From: an uncultured bacterium
GTDB lineage: Bacteria > Patescibacteria > Microgenomatia > Levybacterales > UBA12049
Assembly (NCBI GenBank): GCA_946885425.1
Contig: CAMPGJ010000015.1
Coordinates: forward strand, 1 to 14,669
Direction of reading: 5' to 3'
Length of the DNA: 14,669 nt
Positions 2,792 to 13,956 of this stretch are shown in pieces; the stretch's first letter is position 1; each line of letters starts with the position of its first letter. Made by a program: the position numbers and the translations under genes. The notes beneath the pieces were generated by a model. It did no database searches. It had not been told where the DNA came from and saw only the letters and a program-made list of their open reading frames with translations.

Positions 2792-3913
2792 ATGTTTTTT
2801 CTAGATATATTTAAAAAGACATACCATCCTCTCAACCTCGTTGAGGTTTCTTCAGATGCGCTTCTTTCCAACTACAGCTATCTTTCTTCACTAAATACAA
2901 ATATATCCGTCGCTCCTGTCCTGAAGAGTAACGGTTATGCTCACGGGCTTGTAAACGTTGCAAAAATAATTGATGGTGTAGGTGCACCATTTGTTTGTGT
3001 AGATAGCATTTACGAGGGCTACGAGCTACTCAAGAGCCATATGCAGTCGCCGATCCTCATCATGGGGTATATCAATCCAGAAAATTTAAAAGTGAAAAGA
3101 TTGCCGTTTTCATATGCTGTGTACAATCGGGAACAGGTTTTTGGTATTAGCAGATATCAGCCTCATGCGGGAATTCATGTTTTCGTTGACACCGGCATGC
3201 ATAGAGAGGGTGTCTCGCTTGATGATTTGCCGGAATTTTTGCAGTACGTGAATGAGCTTGGTCTACGCATGGAAGGTCTGATGTCTCACCTGGCTGCAGC
3301 GGATAACCCTGATAGCGAGTTAACAAAAAAACAAACAGGAAATTTTGAAACAGCGCAAGAGATAGTCAGGATAGCTGGTTTATTTCCTAAATGGATTCAT
3401 CTCGGAGCATCCTCTGCTCTTTTAAATCATTCGAAATATGTAGGAAAGCTGGGAAACATGGTGCGGGTAGGAATTTCGCTGTATGGGATTGATCCAGAAG
3501 GTAAAAATAAGCAATTGCAGCCGGCTTTGACGTTGGTATCGACTCTAAGCCAAGTGAAGAGCTTGAAAGAAGGCGAGAAAATAGGGTATGACTTCACGTA
3601 CACAGCTCCGAGAAACATGATAATTGGTATTTTGCCAATAGGGTATTACGATGGGGTTGAAAGAAGACTGTCTAATAAAGGTCTAGTCGTCATTAATAAT
3701 ATAAAATGTCCAATCATTGGTAGAGTTAGTATGAATCTAACAACTGTTGATATAAGTTCGGTAAAAGATCCAAAGGTAGGGGATAGGGTGATAATTTACT
3801 CAGCTAACACTGCAGATCCTAATTCGATTTCTCATGCTGCTGCTCTGTGTGAAACCATCCCATACGATATCATAGTGGGATTAGCATCCTCAACAAAAAG
3901 GATAGTGCGCTGA
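2792..3913 (+). CDS. alr: Alanine racemase, PLP-dependent
   Basis: Converts L-alanine to D-alanine for Ddl; cytoplasmic PLP enzyme. The 373-aa protein has the PLP lysine in PVLKSNGYAHG (Lys45), GMHREG with an arginine at about 138, the RVGISLYG segment around 225-232, and a GYD motif whose Tyr (about 266) matches the catalytic tyrosine position of the family. It then has GYYDGVERR and GRVSMN. Where most family members have Met-Asp in that last motif, this one has Met-Asn (about 315), a mild oddity. The ATG at 2792 is preferred over the in-frame TTG at 2723, because the 23 extra residues would be translated repeat. It is the third gene of the D-Ala-D-Ala set. Confidence 0.93.
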   Translation: MFFLDIFKKTYHPLNLVEVSSDALLSNYSYLSSLNTNISVAPVLKSNGYAHGLVNVAKIIDGVGAPFVCVDSIYEGYELLKSHMQSPILIMGYINPENLKVKRLPFSYAVYNREQVFGISRYQPHAGIHVFVDTGMHREGVSLDDLPEFLQYVNELGLRMEGLMSHLAAADNPDSELTKKQTGNFETAQEIVRIAGLFPKWIHLGASSALLNHSKYVGKLGNMVRVGISLYGIDPEGKNKQLQPALTLVSTLSQVKSLKEGEKIGYDFTYTAPRNMIIGILPIGYYDGVERRLSNKGLVVINNIKCPIIGRVSMNLTTVDISSVKDPKVGDRVIIYSANTADPNSISHAAALCETIPYDIIVGLASSTKRIVR

Positions 3914-3922
3914 TAGTTAATA

Positions 3923-3992
3923 GGGGATCTTAGAGGTGTGTGTAAGGCTTGCGCCTAAATCTAGCAGAGCTAGTCACATACATAAGATCCCC
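3923..3992. other. Possible structured RNA or repeat: three-way-junction fold
   Basis: A perfect 10-bp outer stem, GGGGATCTTA (3923-3932) with TAAGATCCCC (3983-3992), is followed inward by TGTGTG/CACATA (one wobble) and two small hairpins: AGGC/GCCT (loop TTGC) and CTAGC/GCTAG (loop AGA). The 70-nt unit lies between the convergent alr and pup genes. No U-run follows on either strand, so a simple intrinsic terminator is unlikely. It is not a tRNA, since no T-arm consensus is present. Confidence 0.5.
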
Positions 3993-4029
3993 AATTGGGA
4001 GAGAGTCGAGCGAGTGCTGGGTGATTAGA

Positions 4030-4073
4030 TCATGAGTACAGCTTCGTACTCCCCAGTCTCACAAGACTCATGA
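4030..4073. other. Second inverted-repeat element, directly after the pup stop
   Basis: Outer arms TCATGAGT (4030-4037) and ACTCATGA (4066-4073) are perfectly complementary. Inside are GAGTAC/GTACTC (4034-4039 and 4046-4051) and AGTCT/AGACT (4055-4059 and 4064-4068). The outer and inner stems share bases, so two folds compete. On the minus strand it starts 4 nt after the pup stop codon and may protect or end the pup transcript. No U-run follows. Confidence 0.45.
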
Positions 4074-4077
4074 GCTC

Positions 4078-4296
4078 TTACTGCCCGCCTTTCTGTACGA
4101 ACGAGCGTACGAATTCTTCGGCGTTCTCTTCGAGAACGTCGTCGATTTCGTCCAGGACGGAGTCCGTGTCTTCGGACAGCTTTTCCTGGCGTTCCTTGAG
4201 TTCCTCGGAGGCCTGCGCATCTTGCGCCTGCTCTTCGACTTCTTCAGTCGAACGCGTGGTTTTCTGCTGTCCGCTACCGGTGTCTTTGGTAGCCAT
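4078..4296 (-). CDS. pup: Prokaryotic ubiquitin-like protein Pup
   Basis: A 72-residue, very acidic and probably disordered protein modifier. In pupylating bacteria Pup is ligated through its C-terminal Glu to substrate lysines by PafA, after Dop deamidates the terminal Gln, and delivers them to the Mpa/ARC-proteasome. Residues 35-72 contain the characteristic core (ERQEKL, LDEIDDVLEENAEEFVR) and end QKGGQ, closely matching the C-terminal half of actinobacterial Pup as I remember it. The N-terminal half is Gln/Glu/Thr rich, as usual. The start is fixed by a good GGAGAAG site 5 nt upstream. An in-frame ORF extends upstream to 4428 but crosses the promoter. 48 of 73 codons end in G or C, versus 9 of the first 30 in the divergent neighbour. 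No PafA, Dop, ATPase or proteasome subunit lies in the window. Confidence 0.93.
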   Translation of the reverse strand: MATKDTGSGQQKTTRSTEEVEEQAQDAQASEELKERQEKLSEDTDSVLDEIDDVLEENAEEFVRSFVQKGGQ

Positions 4297-4301
4297 GGCT
4301 A

Positions 4302-4308
4302 CTTCTCC
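4302..4308 (-). promoter_or_regulatory. Strong ribosome binding site of pup
   Basis: GGAGAAG on the minus strand, with 5 nt to the ATG at 4296. This decides the Pup start. It is notable because most other genes in the window have no Shine-Dalgarno sequence. Confidence 0.8.
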
Positions 4309-4351
4309 ATTCCACTTGGAAGAGTTGGAGACCCCTTGTATCTCCGGGGTG

Positions 4352-4360
4352 ATTATAGCA
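4352..4360 (-). promoter_or_regulatory. Extended -10 promoter of pup
   Basis: TGCTATAAT on the minus strand is a perfect extended -10. There is no good -35 at 16-18 bp. Transcription would start near 4345, giving a leader of about 50 nt that can form GGAGA/TCTCC (4341-4345 with 4327-4331) and TTCC/GGAA hairpins before the ribosome binding site. Confidence 0.7.
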
Positions 4361-4413
4361 CAGGCTAAATAATGGCTGAGTACTGTCAGGTGTTTGTCCA
4401 TGAAAGGCGATTG

Positions 4414-4433
4414 CTGCAATGCTAGCATTGCAG
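4414..4433. promoter_or_regulatory. Perfect 20-bp palindrome between pup and the divergent gene
   Basis: CTGCAATGC-TA-GCATTGCAG is perfectly self-complementary. It ends 3 nt before the ATG at 4437 and lies about 57 bp upstream of the pup -10. It could be an operator for a dimeric regulator acting on both genes, or an RNA hairpin abutting the start codon. Confidence 0.55.
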
Positions 4434-4436
4434 TAG

Positions 4437-5414
4437 ATGGGTAGTCCTGAAAGGAAATTCCAGCCAGCTTCAGAAGTTAGAAGGAGTGGTGAAGATATTG
4501 TTAACGTACGGCTTCCAAAAGCCGGGCAGGCTGATCTTATTTTACCTACGTGGGATCAGGTTGTTACCGCATTACAGTATTTTCAGACAGAAGAATTTCA
4601 GAATCTTCCAATACCTCCTTTAGAAGCATTTGAAGAGAAAAAGCTGAGGGACAAAGGGAAGAGTGGGCTTCTCTCAAAGTATTCAGAGCAACAAATAAAT
4701 TTTTTCACCTCATATTACAACACATTCCCCACAAATGAAAATCATGTGAGTAACTTATTATTACAAGCGAAGCCAAAACTTGAGGAAGGGAGAAAATTCG
4801 TTAATGCGAGCTCATTTAATGGACGGGCTTTATATGAATCAAAGTTAGAGATTGAAAGTTTATATCAACAAGATCAAGAGCCCATTTATAAGCTATCGGT
4901 TGGATCTGAAATATTGGGAAATTTTCTCGAAGATAAATTAGAATCAAAAGGTGTAGAAAGAGCATCGCAAGCTAAGTTTGTTGTTATTGAGTACGCTCAG
5001 AAAGAGGGAAAATTTACTGTTAATTTTGATGATGTATCCAAAAGGTTGCGTACGGCTTTGGGAAATGATAATAAACAACTAAGTGGAACTAGCTTGGCTC
5101 ATCGTTTTAATAGTCAAATACATGAATCTGAAAAGGTAACTGAGTTGGGTAACTATGAGGGTTTTCATTTACAAATGCATGTCCGGCATGATTGTGGTTT
5201 TAATAAAGGAGAAGGAAATACAGTAGTGGGATCAATTCCAAGGCCACTCCAGGGTGGGTTGATTACTCCTTCATTGGATATTTCAATTGCGACATCGGGT
5301 CTCCAAAAAAAAAGCGATAAAGGATATTTGCGGGATTATTTAATCATCACTCCCGATCAACGTCAGGCAGCACAACATTTGGGTGAAAGATTAGCAAAGG
5401 CATTTAAGAGTTAA
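4437..5414 (+). CDS. Protein of unknown function, divergent from pup
   Basis: A 325-aa protein I do not recognise. It has no signal peptide or membrane helix. The N-terminal 30 residues are polar. A WDQVVTALQYFQ segment near residue 39 looks helical. Residues 60-190 are charged and helix-rich. The C-terminal third is more globular and contains HLQMHVRHDCGFNKGEGN, with closely spaced His, Asp and Cys residues that could bind metal or form an active site, and later YLRDYLIITPDQ. A stop codon immediately precedes the ATG, and no Shine-Dalgarno sequence is present. Translation may depend on the palindrome upstream, or the start may be leaderless. It is followed after 14 nt by the ADP-ribosylglycohydrolase gene, so the two are probably co-transcribed. 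It does not resemble PafA, Dop or a proteasome subunit. Confidence 0.75.
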   Translation: MGSPERKFQPASEVRRSGEDIVNVRLPKAGQADLILPTWDQVVTALQYFQTEEFQNLPIPPLEAFEEKKLRDKGKSGLLSKYSEQQINFFTSYYNTFPTNENHVSNLLLQAKPKLEEGRKFVNASSFNGRALYESKLEIESLYQQDQEPIYKLSVGSEILGNFLEDKLESKGVERASQAKFVVIEYAQKEGKFTVNFDDVSKRLRTALGNDNKQLSGTSLAHRFNSQIHESEKVTELGNYEGFHLQMHVRHDCGFNKGEGNTVVGSIPRPLQGGLITPSLDISIATSGLQKKSDKGYLRDYLIITPDQRQAAQHLGERLAKAFKS

Positions 5415-5428
5415 GAAACTTTCATAGT

Positions 5429-6799
5429 ATGCTCGAAAAATTCTTTAGACCATTAGGTTATGCGGATAATCTTCCAACGGAAGTGAGGCAGAGCCGTGAG
5501 GAAGGGAAGGATGTTAGTAGTGTTGAAAGAGTAGCAAAAGTGATCTTTGAAAGCCCAAAAATCCCTCAAAGAGAGCAAGCCGCAGGGAGCATATATGATA
5601 AGCTTGCCCAGGAACCGGTAATTGAAAACTTCAGATATGTAGAGCCTTCAGATTTGAAAAGTATCCAAGCAGCACGGCCCAAATATGAGCGGGTTGTACG
5701 TCCGCCTGAGATTGAAGAACAGAAAATGTATGACAAAGTGTATGGAGCATGGCTGGGAAGGACAGCGGGGGTTTTACTGGGACAGCCGGTTGAAGGATGG
5801 CATAGAGACCGGATAGTAGGTTTGTTAAAAGATACGGATAATCATCCAATCAATTATTACATCTCTTCCAATATTCCTCAGGATCTGCGGGATAAATATC
5901 AGGTTGTTGATAAGCCAGGACCTTATGGAAGTCCGCATAAAAATTGGATTAACAATATAGATATGGCACCAAAGGATGATGACACTGACTATACGATAAT
6001 CGGTTTGAAAATACTCGAGGAATATGGACCTGATTTTAAGCCGGTTGATGTCGCTGAGACATGGTTGAGTTATTTGCCGGTTAGACGTGCTTGTACTGCG
6101 GAAAGGGTAGCGTATAAAAATTTAGTCAATGGAAAATTGCCGCCTGAATCCGCAACGTACCGCAATCCTTTCCGTGAGTGGATTGGTGCGCAAATACGTG
6201 GGGATTTTTTTGGATATATCACACCCGGGAAGCCCGAGCTGGCAGCTGATATGGCGTGGAGGGACGCGTCTATATCGCACACAAAAAATGGCATTTATGG
6301 GGAAATGAATGTCGCCGCCATGCTCTCTACAGCAGCTGTAACGAATAATGTAGGAGAAATCATACAGGGCGGACTCAAGCAAATTCCTGAGAAATCGCGT
6401 CTGACAGAGGGGATACAGGAGGTTATGAAATGGAAGAAAGAGGGGATTACCTGGCAGCAAGCGCTGGATAGAGTTCATGAAAAATATGATGAGAAAGTTG
6501 AGCATGATTGGTGTCATACTATTTCTAACGCGATGATTGTTGATATCGCGCTGCTTTATGGAGATTTGGACTTGGAGAAAACAGTAGGAATCACTGTAAT
6601 GGCTGGTTTTGATACAGATTGCAATGCCGCCACAGCAGGATCCATAGTTGGGATGGTAGTGGGTGCAGAAAAGCTTCCAAGTAAATGGACTGCGCCGTTG
6701 AATGATCAGCTGAGAACGAATGTTGAGGATGGGGTGGTTAACATCTCTGATTTGGCTAAAAGAACTATGGAAGTAAAGAAAAAGTTGCATTTTGTTTAA
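5429..6799 (+). CDS. ADP-ribosylglycohydrolase family protein
   Basis: Probable DraG/ARH-fold hydrolase that removes ADP-ribose or cleaves a related N-ribosyl bond, using two Mg ions; cytoplasmic. Of 456 residues the first 100 are an unrecognised, mostly polar extension. The catalytic domain starts at YDKVYGAWLGRTAGVLLGQPVEGW (101-124). The first metal site is DDDTDYT (183-189), a helix-rich middle contains DASISHTKNGIYGE (279-292), and the second metal site is GFDTDCNAATAG (393-404), followed by a conserved LPSKW. All expected acidic metal ligands appear intact. Some relatives cleave ADP-ribosyl-arginine and others act on small nucleosides, so the substrate cannot be named. The gene lies 14 nt after the unknown 325-aa gene, and no Shine-Dalgarno sequence is visible. 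Confidence 0.88.
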   Translation: MLEKFFRPLGYADNLPTEVRQSREEGKDVSSVERVAKVIFESPKIPQREQAAGSIYDKLAQEPVIENFRYVEPSDLKSIQAARPKYERVVRPPEIEEQKMYDKVYGAWLGRTAGVLLGQPVEGWHRDRIVGLLKDTDNHPINYYISSNIPQDLRDKYQVVDKPGPYGSPHKNWINNIDMAPKDDDTDYTIIGLKILEEYGPDFKPVDVAETWLSYLPVRRACTAERVAYKNLVNGKLPPESATYRNPFREWIGAQIRGDFFGYITPGKPELAADMAWRDASISHTKNGIYGEMNVAAMLSTAAVTNNVGEIIQGGLKQIPEKSRLTEGIQEVMKWKKEGITWQQALDRVHEKYDEKVEHDWCHTISNAMIVDIALLYGDLDLEKTVGITVMAGFDTDCNAATAGSIVGMVVGAEKLPSKWTAPLNDQLRTNVEDGVVNISDLAKRTMEVKKKLHFV

Positions 6800-6926: not shown

Positions 6927-8651
6927 CTAGAGTGATTTCCATATATAGGAATAAGGGGCGAGAAAGTAGTTATTATCTTCGTAGGTAACGGTAACTTCCT
7001 CTCCGCTGAGGTTGTGAAGAGTAAGCATATTTCCTTCAGAAGCTTCCCGAAGAAGGGCAAAAACTCTTTCATCCAGAGATAAAACTGTTTGTGGTGCGTT
7101 GGGGTGAAAAGCCGGGTGGTTGGTCCTTCGTTTTAATAATTCTTTAAATGATTCAAAAACTTTGTGTCCTTTAGAATCATTCTTGGTGAGTTCTTCCTCA
7201 AGAGCAGCCAAATCGAGGTTTTCTCTATTTATATCCCTGGTGTGATTCGTCTTTTCAAATCCTGCTGTATCATTTTCTTTACCAAAGAGGGACAGATAAT
7301 AGATTCCAGGAATACCCGCTAATGCAAAGCAAATTGCGTATGATGTAATAAATCTATTACAGTTTGTTTCAAATGTGTCAGTTTCTTTATTGATGACTGA
7401 CCACCACGTTCCGCACACTTCATAGGCACTTTTTTGTCCATTAGGTAGAGAACGATAGGATACTTTTCCACCATTTTCAGATATTTCATTGCACATAGTT
7501 TCAATATCTTCATCATCAATAACCCCTTTTGCTCCGAGCATGCCTATGCCATCATGTGATGCAAGAAAATTAAAGAAGGTTGTTTCTTGCGATGGGGGAG
7601 TAAGCGACTTTGCCCAATTGGTAAGTGATTCAGATCTACCTTTTTGGAAGGAATACAGTACAAGCGGAGGAAGGGCAAAATTATATACCATTTGTGCTTC
7701 ATTATGCCCATTGCCGAAATATGAAATATTTTCACTATGAGGAACATTGGTTTCTGTTATGAGTAATGCTGAAGGAGCAATTTCATTTAATAAATCGCGT
7801 ACAATTTGGATAATCATATGTCCTTCTGCTAGATGAACTGATGAGGTTCCCGTTTTTTTCCAGACGTACGTAACAGCATCTAATCTCAACAATTGTGCTC
7901 CTTTTTGTATAAGCTGGAGAATAACTTTTATAATCTCCAGAAGAACTTGATGATTTTGATAATTAAGATCTACCTGATCAGTTGTAGTACCAACACTAAA
8001 CGTTGTCCATACATAGCGAGGTCCATCTTGAGTCTCGAATTTTGTGAGAAGGGGTGTAGAGCGAGGACGGAAAACTTTTTGTAGGTCTGATTTTAATTCT
8101 GGAGTGAGATCCGCTTCTTTAAAGCTTATGAAAAAATTTTCATAAGCAGGATCACCTTGCAAGAATTTCTGAAACCAATTACTTTGGGTTGAAACATGGT
8201 TCAAAACAAGATCACACATGAGTTTCTTCTCTTTGGAGATTGTTTCAATATCTTCCCAGTCGCCAAACTCTTCTTTTACTTTATTAAAGTCGATAATAGA
8301 AAATCCTCGATCTGAGGAGTAGGGGAAGAAGGGGAGAATATGAACTGAGTTGAGAATGGATAGTTGCTTGTCCCGCGTAGCTTCTTGCCCTTCCGTAGCC
8401 TTTGGCGAAGGATGGTTAGCGAAGTGGGAAGAGTTGAGAAATTTGTGAAGTGTCTGCAATGGCTTCTTACCGTTCTCCTGAAAAGAGTCTGCATAGGTGA
8501 TCAAAACGGCATCTTTTTCACTGAAGTATTCCCGCTGGGGTACATGTATATTGGTCTTGGCTACAGCGACAATTTCCTTAATCTCTTCAAAAATCGTTTC
8601 TGCTCTTTCTTTTCCGTAGAGGAAAGTAAGTTTATTAAAAATATCATCCAT
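6927..8651 (-). CDS. GH13 sucrose phosphorylase-like glucosyl phosphorylase
   Basis: A 574-aa alpha-amylase-superfamily enzyme most like subfamily GH13_18 (sucrose phosphorylase, glucosylglycerate or glucosylglycerol phosphorylase), which reversibly phosphorolyses alpha-glucosides to glucose 1-phosphate. Landmarks are ITYADSF (51-57), VHILPFFPYSSDRGFS (103-118), CDLVLNHVS (146-154), nucleophile Asp258 in RLDAV, acid/base Glu300 in LITETNVPH, and the transition-state His-Asp pair in ASHDGIG (366-367). Residues about 76-97 are an in-frame repeat insertion between helix 1 and the VHILPFFP strand. The start at 8651 is placed 7 nt after a TACTAT -10, suggesting a leaderless mRNA. The acceptor sugar cannot be read from sequence. 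It lies 31 nt after the GIY-YIG gene and converges on the upstream plus-strand genes. Confidence 0.88.
   Translation of the reverse strand: MDDIFNKLTFLYGKERAETIFEEIKEIVAVAKTNIHVPQREYFSEKDAVLITYADSFQENGKKPLQTLHKFLNSSHFANHPSPKATEGQEATRDKQLSILNSVHILPFFPYSSDRGFSIIDFNKVKEEFGDWEDIETISKEKKLMCDLVLNHVSTQSNWFQKFLQGDPAYENFFISFKEADLTPELKSDLQKVFRPRSTPLLTKFETQDGPRYVWTTFSVGTTTDQVDLNYQNHQVLLEIIKVILQLIQKGAQLLRLDAVTYVWKKTGTSSVHLAEGHMIIQIVRDLLNEIAPSALLITETNVPHSENISYFGNGHNEAQMVYNFALPPLVLYSFQKGRSESLTNWAKSLTPPSQETTFFNFLASHDGIGMLGAKGVIDDEDIETMCNEISENGGKVSYRSLPNGQKSAYEVCGTWWSVINKETDTFETNCNRFITSYAICFALAGIPGIYYLSLFGKENDTAGFEKTNHTRDINRENLDLAALEEELTKNDSKGHKVFESFKELLKRRTNHPAFHPNAPQTVLSLDERVFALLREASEGNMLTLHNLSGEEVTVTYEDNNYFLAPYSYIWKSL
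8367..8431. repeat. Repeat element inserted in frame in the GH13 gene
   Basis: Begins CTTGTCCCGCGTAGC. Its core, 8389-8411, folds as CCTTC/GAAGG around GCC/GGC. The GH13 protein carries about 22 extra residues here (HPSPKATEGQEATRDKQ region), exactly where sucrose phosphorylases go directly from helix to the VHILPFFP strand. The reading frame is preserved. Ends are approximate. Confidence 0.7.
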
Positions 8652-9070: not shown

Positions 9071-9156
9071 TGGTACCGGGGGGGGGACTCGAACCCCCAA
9101 GGCCTTGCGACCAGTAGTTTTTGAGACTACCGCGTATACCATTCCGCCACCTCGGC
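9071..9156 (-). tRNA. tRNA-Leu, anticodon CAA, CCA encoded
   Basis: The minus strand gives acceptor GCCGAGG, D-stem GCG/CGC with a GG-containing loop, anticodon arm GTAGT-CTCAAAA-ACTAC (anticodon CAA, reading UUG), a long variable arm GGTC-GCAA-GGCC typical of class II tRNAs, T-arm GGGGG-TTCGAGT-CCCCC, 3' acceptor CCCCGGT, discriminator A and encoded CCA. The acceptor pairs poorly: G1-U72 is a wobble and A5-C68 a mismatch. The 3' strand expected for perfect pairing would be CCTCGGC. The run of nine C is also an easy place for an assembly error. Confidence 0.93.
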
Positions 9157-9251
9157 ATGTACAAATGCTGTAATTAAATCACAACTGATTTACAAACTAA
9201 AATTAAGATCCTAAGCTGTGTACAATTTGAGTAAGAGCATTTGTACATGCC
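9154..9251. repeat. 16-bp inverted repeat involving the tRNA-Leu 5' end
   Basis: GGCATGTACAAATGCT (9154-9169) and AGCATTTGTACATGCC (9236-9251) are perfect reverse complements 66 bp apart. The first arm includes the first bases of the tRNA. With one mismatch the pairing extends so that the acceptor GCCGAGG can pair with upstream CCTAGGC. The region between, 9170-9235, is AT-rich and must hold the tRNA promoter. I see no gene in it. Confidence 0.75.
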
Positions 9252-9278
9252 TAGGCAAATAATTCAGTTTAAAAGCCT

Positions 9279-13118: not shown

Positions 13119-13183
13119 TCATCCTGAACTTGTTTCAGGATCTAATAAGGAATCATAAGATGCTGAACTAAATTCAGCATGAC
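13119..13183. repeat. Dispersed two-hairpin repeat before rluA (copy 2)
   Basis: The first 30 bp equal 1572-1601. The second hairpin ATGCTGAA/TTCAGCAT (13160-13167 and 13173-13180) equals that before ddl. The middle is about 29 bp shorter than in copy 1. It ends 8 nt before the rluA ATG, the same distance as copy 1 before ddl. Confidence 0.85.
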
Positions 13184-13191
13184 AAATTAAT

Positions 13192-13956
13192 ATGAATATT
13201 GAAGTTATTTTTGAAGACGAAGATTTAATAATTATTGATAAGCCTGCGGGGATAACTGTGAATAGGGCTGAGACAACGCGGGGTGAGATAACGGTGCAGG
13301 ATTGGGCGGAGGGACGATTTGGTGAAAAGTTTCAGAAAGAGAAAGAGGAGGATGATAAAAAACCTGCACTCCCTGAAGGGGAATACAAGAATGAATTTTA
13401 TAGTAGAGGAGGAGTAGTGCATAGGCTTGATAAAGAGACTTCAGGAATTTTGATTTTAGCTAAAAATCCACAAGTTTTTGCAGAATTGCAAAAACAGTTC
13501 AGAGAGAGAACTGTTAAGAAGGTTTACCAAGCACTAGCACATGGCGTTGTAGCGCCCTCAGAAGGGGAGATAAGTGTTCCTGTGGGTAGATTGCCCTGGA
13601 ACAGGAAAAGCTTTGGTATTGTACCAGGAGGACGTGAGTCTAAAACCTTATATAAAGTACTGAAGACATTCCAGGATTCTAAGACGAAAGAAAAGCTCTC
13701 TTTAGTTGAGCTCTATCCACAATCAGGAAGAACCCACCAAATCCGTGTGCATCTCAAATATATTAATCATCCCATTTTCGCTGACTTTCTCTATGCGGGA
13801 CGCAAAACCTCCAGGAATGATAGAAAGATATTAGCCCGTGTGTTCCTCCATGCGGCAAAAATCTCATTCACTCACCCGAAGAGTGGAGAAATTGTTACTT
13901 ATGAAGCACCCTTAACTCCAGAGCTGCAGGGAGTGCTGGATGGTTTTTCTCATTAA
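13192..13956 (+). CDS. RluA-family RNA pseudouridine synthase
   Basis: A 254-aa enzyme isomerising specific uridines in rRNA or tRNA. The family landmarks are in order: DLIIIDKPAGITVN (11-24), the catalytic motif HRLDKETSG with Asp80, AKN, the YQAL segment, and RTHQIRVHLKYINHPIFAD followed by LYAG. The C terminus is the usual THPKSGE plus short tail. There is no N-terminal S4 domain, so it is of the short RluA/RluC-like type lacking S4. A charged insertion of about 35 residues (about 38-72, Lys/Glu rich) lies before the catalytic motif. The target base cannot be assigned. No Shine-Dalgarno sequence precedes the ATG; the dispersed repeat ends 8 nt upstream. Confidence 0.92.
   Translation: MNIEVIFEDEDLIIIDKPAGITVNRAETTRGEITVQDWAEGRFGEKFQKEKEEDDKKPALPEGEYKNEFYSRGGVVHRLDKETSGILILAKNPQVFAELQKQFRERTVKKVYQALAHGVVAPSEGEISVPVGRLPWNRKSFGIVPGGRESKTLYKVLKTFQDSKTKEKLSLVELYPQSGRTHQIRVHLKYINHPIFADFLYAGRKTSRNDRKILARVFLHAAKISFTHPKSGEIVTYEAPLTPELQGVLDGFSH

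Follow-up and report, generated by a model that had tools for sequence, protein, structure and literature searches.

The locus described here lies in a window of 14,669 nucleotides (the whole stretch of DNA that was analysed), in which a pup gene is set between an alanine racemase gene (alr) and a divergently oriented gene of no known family. A sequence-only reading of this DNA had put pup at exactly the coordinates given in Table 1; the gene is on the minus strand, and the same place on the plus strand gives a different reading. To the left of pup lie murF-like, ddl and alr genes. To the right are found the gene for the protein without a Pfam family and genes for an ADP-ribosylglycohydrolase, a sucrose-phosphorylase-like enzyme (with a score under the NCBIfam cut-off), a GIY-YIG protein and a tRNA-Leu and, farther to the right, genes for a NIF3-like protein, EF-P, an MFS transporter, an LGT-like protein and a pseudouridine synthase. 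Repeat-like elements were also observed in the window. A 29-nt imperfect inverted repeat (83 %; 9150–9178 and 9227–9255) is located at the 5′ end of the minus-strand tRNA-Leu gene, and palindromic repeat-like pieces are apparently in frame within the murF-like gene (1276–1375 and 597–712) and ddl (2005–2066). The murF-like piece exemplified by CGTCATTGCGAG...CTCGCAATGACG folds with a z of −4.1 and that at 597–712 with a z of −2.6, while for the ddl piece shuffled sequences fold equally well (z 0.15). An intergenic repeat, made up of TCATCCTGAACTTGTTTCAGGATCTAATAA and a second hairpin piece, is present in two copies (1572–1677 and 13119–13196), and the stretch 1568–1667 folds with a z of −5.4.

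Table 1. Coordinates of the features at and around pup (positions are those of the window)
Feature	Position	Strand	Remarks
Alanine racemase gene (alr), left neighbour of pup, patescibacterial	2792–3913	plus	
Region 3′ of pup, containing two branched stem-loops	3914–4077	minus	stem-loops at about 4003–4069 and 3923–3992; fold z −5.0
Most GC-deviant block of the window	3986–4350	none	GC 0.545, window mean 0.404
GGGTGATTA, the left of two 9-bp direct repeat copies on either side of pup	4019–4027	plus	right copy at 4347–4355
pup	4078–4296	minus	72 aa; C-terminal end QKGGQ
GGAG, putative Shine–Dalgarno-like site	4305–4308	minus	8 nt before the ATG of pup
TGCTATAAT, putative extended −10-like site upstream of pup	4352–4360	minus	
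Perfect palindrome of 20 bp in the gap separating pup from its divergent neighbour	4414–4433	none	
Right neighbour of pup, no known family, divergent from pup	4437–5414	plus	4 relatives found

The suggestion that pup has patescibacterial surroundings was borne out for alr, the sole gene placed. Organism names were attached to eight of the best 120 alr relatives listed, and six of these are patescibacterial, one is Limnocylindrales and one is simply 'bacterium'. A tree was built from 119 of these 120 (P0208 was dropped because of its length), the window sequence and L001. Its smallest well-supported set to include named rows comprises 58 rows and mixes one Saccharimonadales label with one Limnocylindrales label, so that alr does not fix the class of the organism. 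Judged from this one gene, the surroundings of pup are non-actinobacterial. Two scans of assembled genome contigs were made for close relatives; the first found none, and the sole match of the second was a Bacillales racemase of 28 % identity, in a genome without a Pup match. The right neighbour, which ends 14 bp ahead of the ADP-ribosylglycohydrolase gene, has just four relatives at E≤1e-3 among 5.8 billion proteins and none among viral contigs, and it matched no Pfam family. Its structure model is of moderate confidence (pLDDT 75.2, five sequences) and gave no fold match at E≤0.001; weak PAS-domain matches (E 6e-3, TM 0.15) came nearest. No support was found for the idea that this protein is an ADP-ribosyltransferase paired with the ADP-ribosylglycohydrolase.

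The product of pup is confirmed as a real Pup. The 72 residues, the ERQEKL and LDEIDDVLEENAEEFVR core and the QKGGQ end previously read from the gene are all present in the translation, and the Pfam profile that had been proposed as a check on its designation as a canonical Pup (PF05639) matches it over model positions 1–69 of 69 (E 3.2e-29; 102.1 bits against a cut-off of 27). The NCBIfam model TIGR03687 gives 75.3 bits against a cut-off of 41.45, and seven distinct PDB sequences (solved Pup chains) align with the last 28–45 residues. The C-terminus is of the Gly-Gly-Gln/Gly-Gly-Glu kind that characterizes the family, and the best 120 of 2209 relatives end in GGQ (63) or GGE (57). This family match is not due to chance, since 2209 of the 2213 candidate proteins in the protein search with the window Pup reached E≤1e-3. 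The protein is therefore a Pup family member in an unexpected host.

Its sequence marks the protein as more than merely Pup-like, namely as an actinobacterial Pup of Streptomycetaceae type. The organisms named among the best 120 of 2209 matches are Streptomyces, Kitasatospora, Actinacidiphila and Wenjunlia, and the closest named relatives within that set are Streptomycetaceae, at 89–90 % identity. Once trimmed to the MATKDT start, 99 of the 120 listed relatives are 72 residues long; P0003 (see below) was left out, and the consensus of the remaining 98 differs from the window Pup at seven positions. At position 37, the Q of the window Pup is present in 48 of the 98 relatives and the consensus letter in 49, while the changes G8S and V44T fall at positions that are G in 98/98 and V in 97/98 relatives, respectively. 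The N-terminal half is the most variable part among the relatives, and here the window Pup differs from them as much as they do from one another (8.0 against a mean of 8.1 differences); in the C-terminal half it is somewhat more different (4.8 against 3.1). The phylogenetic placement that had been proposed for this Pup could be carried through as a comparison with Streptomycetaceae, on 59 rows and 72 columns, which are too few columns to place the donor inside or just outside the family. This tree was built without 69 of the 120 listed relatives (chiefly rows lacking an organism label, P0003 among them) and without L005, L006 and L008 (duplicates or partial), and 34 of its 54 inner branches are open. 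The window rows cluster with the long-branched L003, L004 and MT835496 (98/76), a grouping that we do not trust. A constraint holding the 50 Streptomycetaceae rows together with the window outside was not rejected (p-AU 0.685), so that the donor may lie just beyond the family as sampled here.

The locus has counterparts on other contigs. The same Pup is encoded on an 864-bp ENA contig (P0003; sample origin not stated) within the same 116-residue open frame, which starts 132 bp upstream of pup and shows one difference in 116, and 43 of the 44 residues of the upstream reading are identical to those of the window. On a third contig, of 989 bp (P0004; sample origin not stated), the same Pup is found minus one Glu. 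Two alr relatives (P0128 and P0130) and two relatives of the right neighbour (P0124 and P0125) are located on JGI contigs of matching sizes, 5995 and 6668 bp, and from these equal sizes we infer that the two genes share the same two contigs. The sibling loci may lack pup, because JGI contigs of 5995 or 6668 bp are absent among the best 120 of 2209 Pup matches.

The composition of pup sets it apart from its neighbours. A scan of blocks of 100–1500 bp across the window placed the most GC-deviant block around pup (Table 1), and the gene itself has a GC content of 0.56 and a GC3 of 0.66, the GC3 of the 11 other window genes being 0.29–0.40. The deviant block fits horizontal transfer, and acquisition by this route is likelier than an old patescibacterial Pup because the protein is Streptomycetaceae-like. 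As regards a mobile element, the 9-bp direct repeat that flanks pup is not significant, since 157 of 2000 shuffles contained an equally long repeat, and no long inverted repeats bracketing the gene were found. There was no match to phage records for positions 4000–4440 (distant mode), and none to phage or plasmid records for the whole window (near mode); the single plasmid-collection hit was to pup itself, in a Nonomuraea record of 11.85 Mb.

Candidate expression signals precede the gene (Table 1). The TGCTATAAT site is the sole exact match among 20 with at most one mismatch, where 20.7 would be expected from shuffles, and a two-hexamer promoter scan did not report it; as an expression signal, this promoter-like site is thus a weak candidate. 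The 3′ region of pup overlaps that of alr, which is encoded on the opposite strand. On the minus strand 0/200 shuffles folded as well as this region, the plus strand gave a z of −4.2, and no Rfam family above cut-off was found in it.

In the pupylation pathway, Dop deamidates the terminal Gln of Pup and PafA ligates Pup to lysine, according to PMC3511204. The QKGGQ end found here would, as the sequence-only reading held, need a Dop-type deamidase. Pfam scans of 15 distinct window proteins and eight additional open frames (among which was an extended version of the pup frame) detected no PafA, Dop, ATPase or proteasome genes, in agreement with the sequence-only reading, which had seen no Dop in the window. 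Among the proteins scanned in these 14.7 kb, Pup is therefore present without PafA or Dop, and without the conserved order of dop, pafA, ATPase and proteasome genes beside it. The lone pup is unusual because pupylation gene order is described in PMC3511204 as rigid apart from duplications, and this combination points to transfer of the tag alone.

The explanation to which we tentatively lean is that a single pup was acquired from a Streptomycetaceae-like actinobacterium and is retained and expressed as an orphan tag, acting on the enzymes of a partner. Patescibacteria are a group of tiny, mostly host-dependent cells. A patescibacterium would have taken up the lone gene at a point between alr and a gene found only in close kin, and selection would have retained it in expressed form. 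If the chemistry is as for Pup, a Dop-type enzyme would deamidate the terminal Gln and a PafA-type ligase would join the tag to lysines. Such a tag can act only where the enzymes are and, supposing that they are absent from the rest of the genome as well, we therefore lean to an actinobacterial host or partner as their source, with the tag acting outside the cell, where the additional Pup would supply, redirect or block pupylation in the partner. For Saccharimonadia, Actinomycetota are given as the preferred hosts in PMC13293708. Against export of Pup it must be said that no export route is visible and that no signal sequence is apparent by eye. The more specific version, in which a patescibacterial episymbiont without enzymes of its own steers or jams the pupylation of its actinobacterial host, and which would amount to tag mimicry by a bacterial parasite, we consider rather doubtful.

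Enzymes of the organism's own, encoded elsewhere in its genome, are not much less likely than an actinobacterial partner. PafA and Dop, perhaps with an Mpa/ARC ATPase, would then pupylate proteins in the organism's own cell, with or without a proteasome, a proposal that is itself doubtful. In its favour, the tag is intact over the entire Pup model and retains the stretch with which solved Pup chains align, and two papers mention sporadic Dop/PafA homologues outside Actinobacteria and Nitrospirae (PMC7947786) and some actinobacteria that retain pupylation genes without proteasome genes (PMC3511204). However, no such gene is present in about 4 kb on one side of pup and 10 kb on the other, despite the rigid gene order noted above (PMC3511204), and Patescibacteria are not among the phyla named for these homologues in the passage of PMC7947786 concerned.

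It is likewise doubtful that pup is a functionless passenger of recent arrival, whose donor may have been of intermediate GC. This would agree with its being alone among the window proteins scanned and with a GC content still unlike that of the rest of the window; however, the same Pup is found on P0003, the ENA contig, and, with one Glu missing, on the third contig (P0004), and its frame is open and preceded by putative Shine–Dalgarno-like and −10-like sites. The number of residue changes bears on this question through the composition of the donor. In simulations of neutral drift alone down to a GC3 of 0.66 (2000 runs per donor GC3), donors of GC3 0.80–0.95 led to medians of 34–47 residue changes against the seven seen, and to seven or fewer changes in 1.3 % of runs or fewer, so that a GC-rich donor (GC3 of at least 0.80) makes so few changes unlikely. 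For a donor GC3 of 0.75, seven or fewer changes occurred in 10.6 % of runs and drift is not rejected. Streptomycetaceae genomes are GC-rich, and only a donor with a GC content as high as theirs would make selection on pup after the transfer likely. A strong claim of amelioration is weakened by the pup of Nonomuraea, a real actinobacterial gene, which has seven A/T-ending codons against ten in the window pup over 30 shared residues.

Finally, an assembly chimera or contamination, with an actinobacterial fragment joined into a patescibacterial contig, which had been named as a finding that would overturn the sequence-only reading, is suggested by the high identity to Streptomycetaceae Pup and by the aberrant GC block, but is made improbable by a GC content and GC3 of pup that are low for Streptomyces, by the recurrence of the same Pup and upstream region on P0003, and by flanking genes that, judged from the equal JGI contig sizes, are apparently neighbours in two siblings, so that a misjoin would have had to lead back to this one locus.

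An intact Pup of Streptomyces type, standing by itself amid patescibacterial genes, would mean that Patescibacteria have a pupylation pathway or else that the tag is used from one cell to another; if the latter is true, pup also points to the organism's host. In a body of literature that left out most subscription papers and all of bioRxiv, we found no paper joining 'pupylation' with 'Patescibacteria' and, judged by titles and the openings of abstracts, no report of Pup in Patescibacteria. PMC12911398, considered as a possible report on Pup or the proteasome, was set aside, the words concerned in the part available being 'puppet' and the name of a filtering step.

Pups were also found in records of viral collections. 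In all nine records examined, a Pup scores above the Pfam cut-off; eight of the nine gave no match to PafA/Dop (PF03136), and none of the nine contains PF00227 (proteasome). L004 and L005 encode one same Pup, as do L007 and L008, so that the eight records with a lone Pup represent at most six independent cases, and several of them are short fragments. In L002 (IMGVR_UViG_3300005529_000024), a 174-kb viral-collection contig without a PafA/Dop match, a Pup ending in GGE is encoded at 8001–8195, and the stretch of this contig that was analysed has 38 % GC, unlike the composition of a GC-rich actinobacterium. The 47-kb record of Streptomyces phage Dagobah (L010) has an annotated Pup (5926–6162) between endolysin and primase genes, again with no PafA/Dop match. 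MT835496.1 (L011–L013), labelled Bacteriophage sp., has two PF03136 genes, one to either side of pup, but no PF00227, and is probably a fragment of an actinobacterial chromosome.

Compared with the Pup of Streptomycetaceae (PF05639, TIGR03687), the window protein is alike in its whole length, its MATKDTG start, its core, its GGQ end and an identity of up to 90 %, whereas its gene has patescibacterial neighbours and a lower GC content, and no dop, proteasome or pafA gene is seen beside it. UBact, the Pup-like proteins of several candidate phyla, is likewise a Pup-like tag outside Actinobacteria; the window protein, for its part, is 90 % identical to Streptomycetaceae Pup. With the lone Pups of viral records (L002–L008 from IMG/VR, and Dagobah) it shares a Pup above the Pfam cut-off without PafA/Dop in the record (8/8), and these may, by analogy, likewise interfere with or supply the pupylation of a partner; however, the viral sequences are much more divergent, and the window matches no phage records. 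A parallel in origin is offered by the pupylation loci of Nitrospirae, whose genes are considered in PMC3511204 to have been acquired horizontally from Actinobacteria; there a whole ordered locus was taken, whereas here pup stands alone in 14.7 kb.
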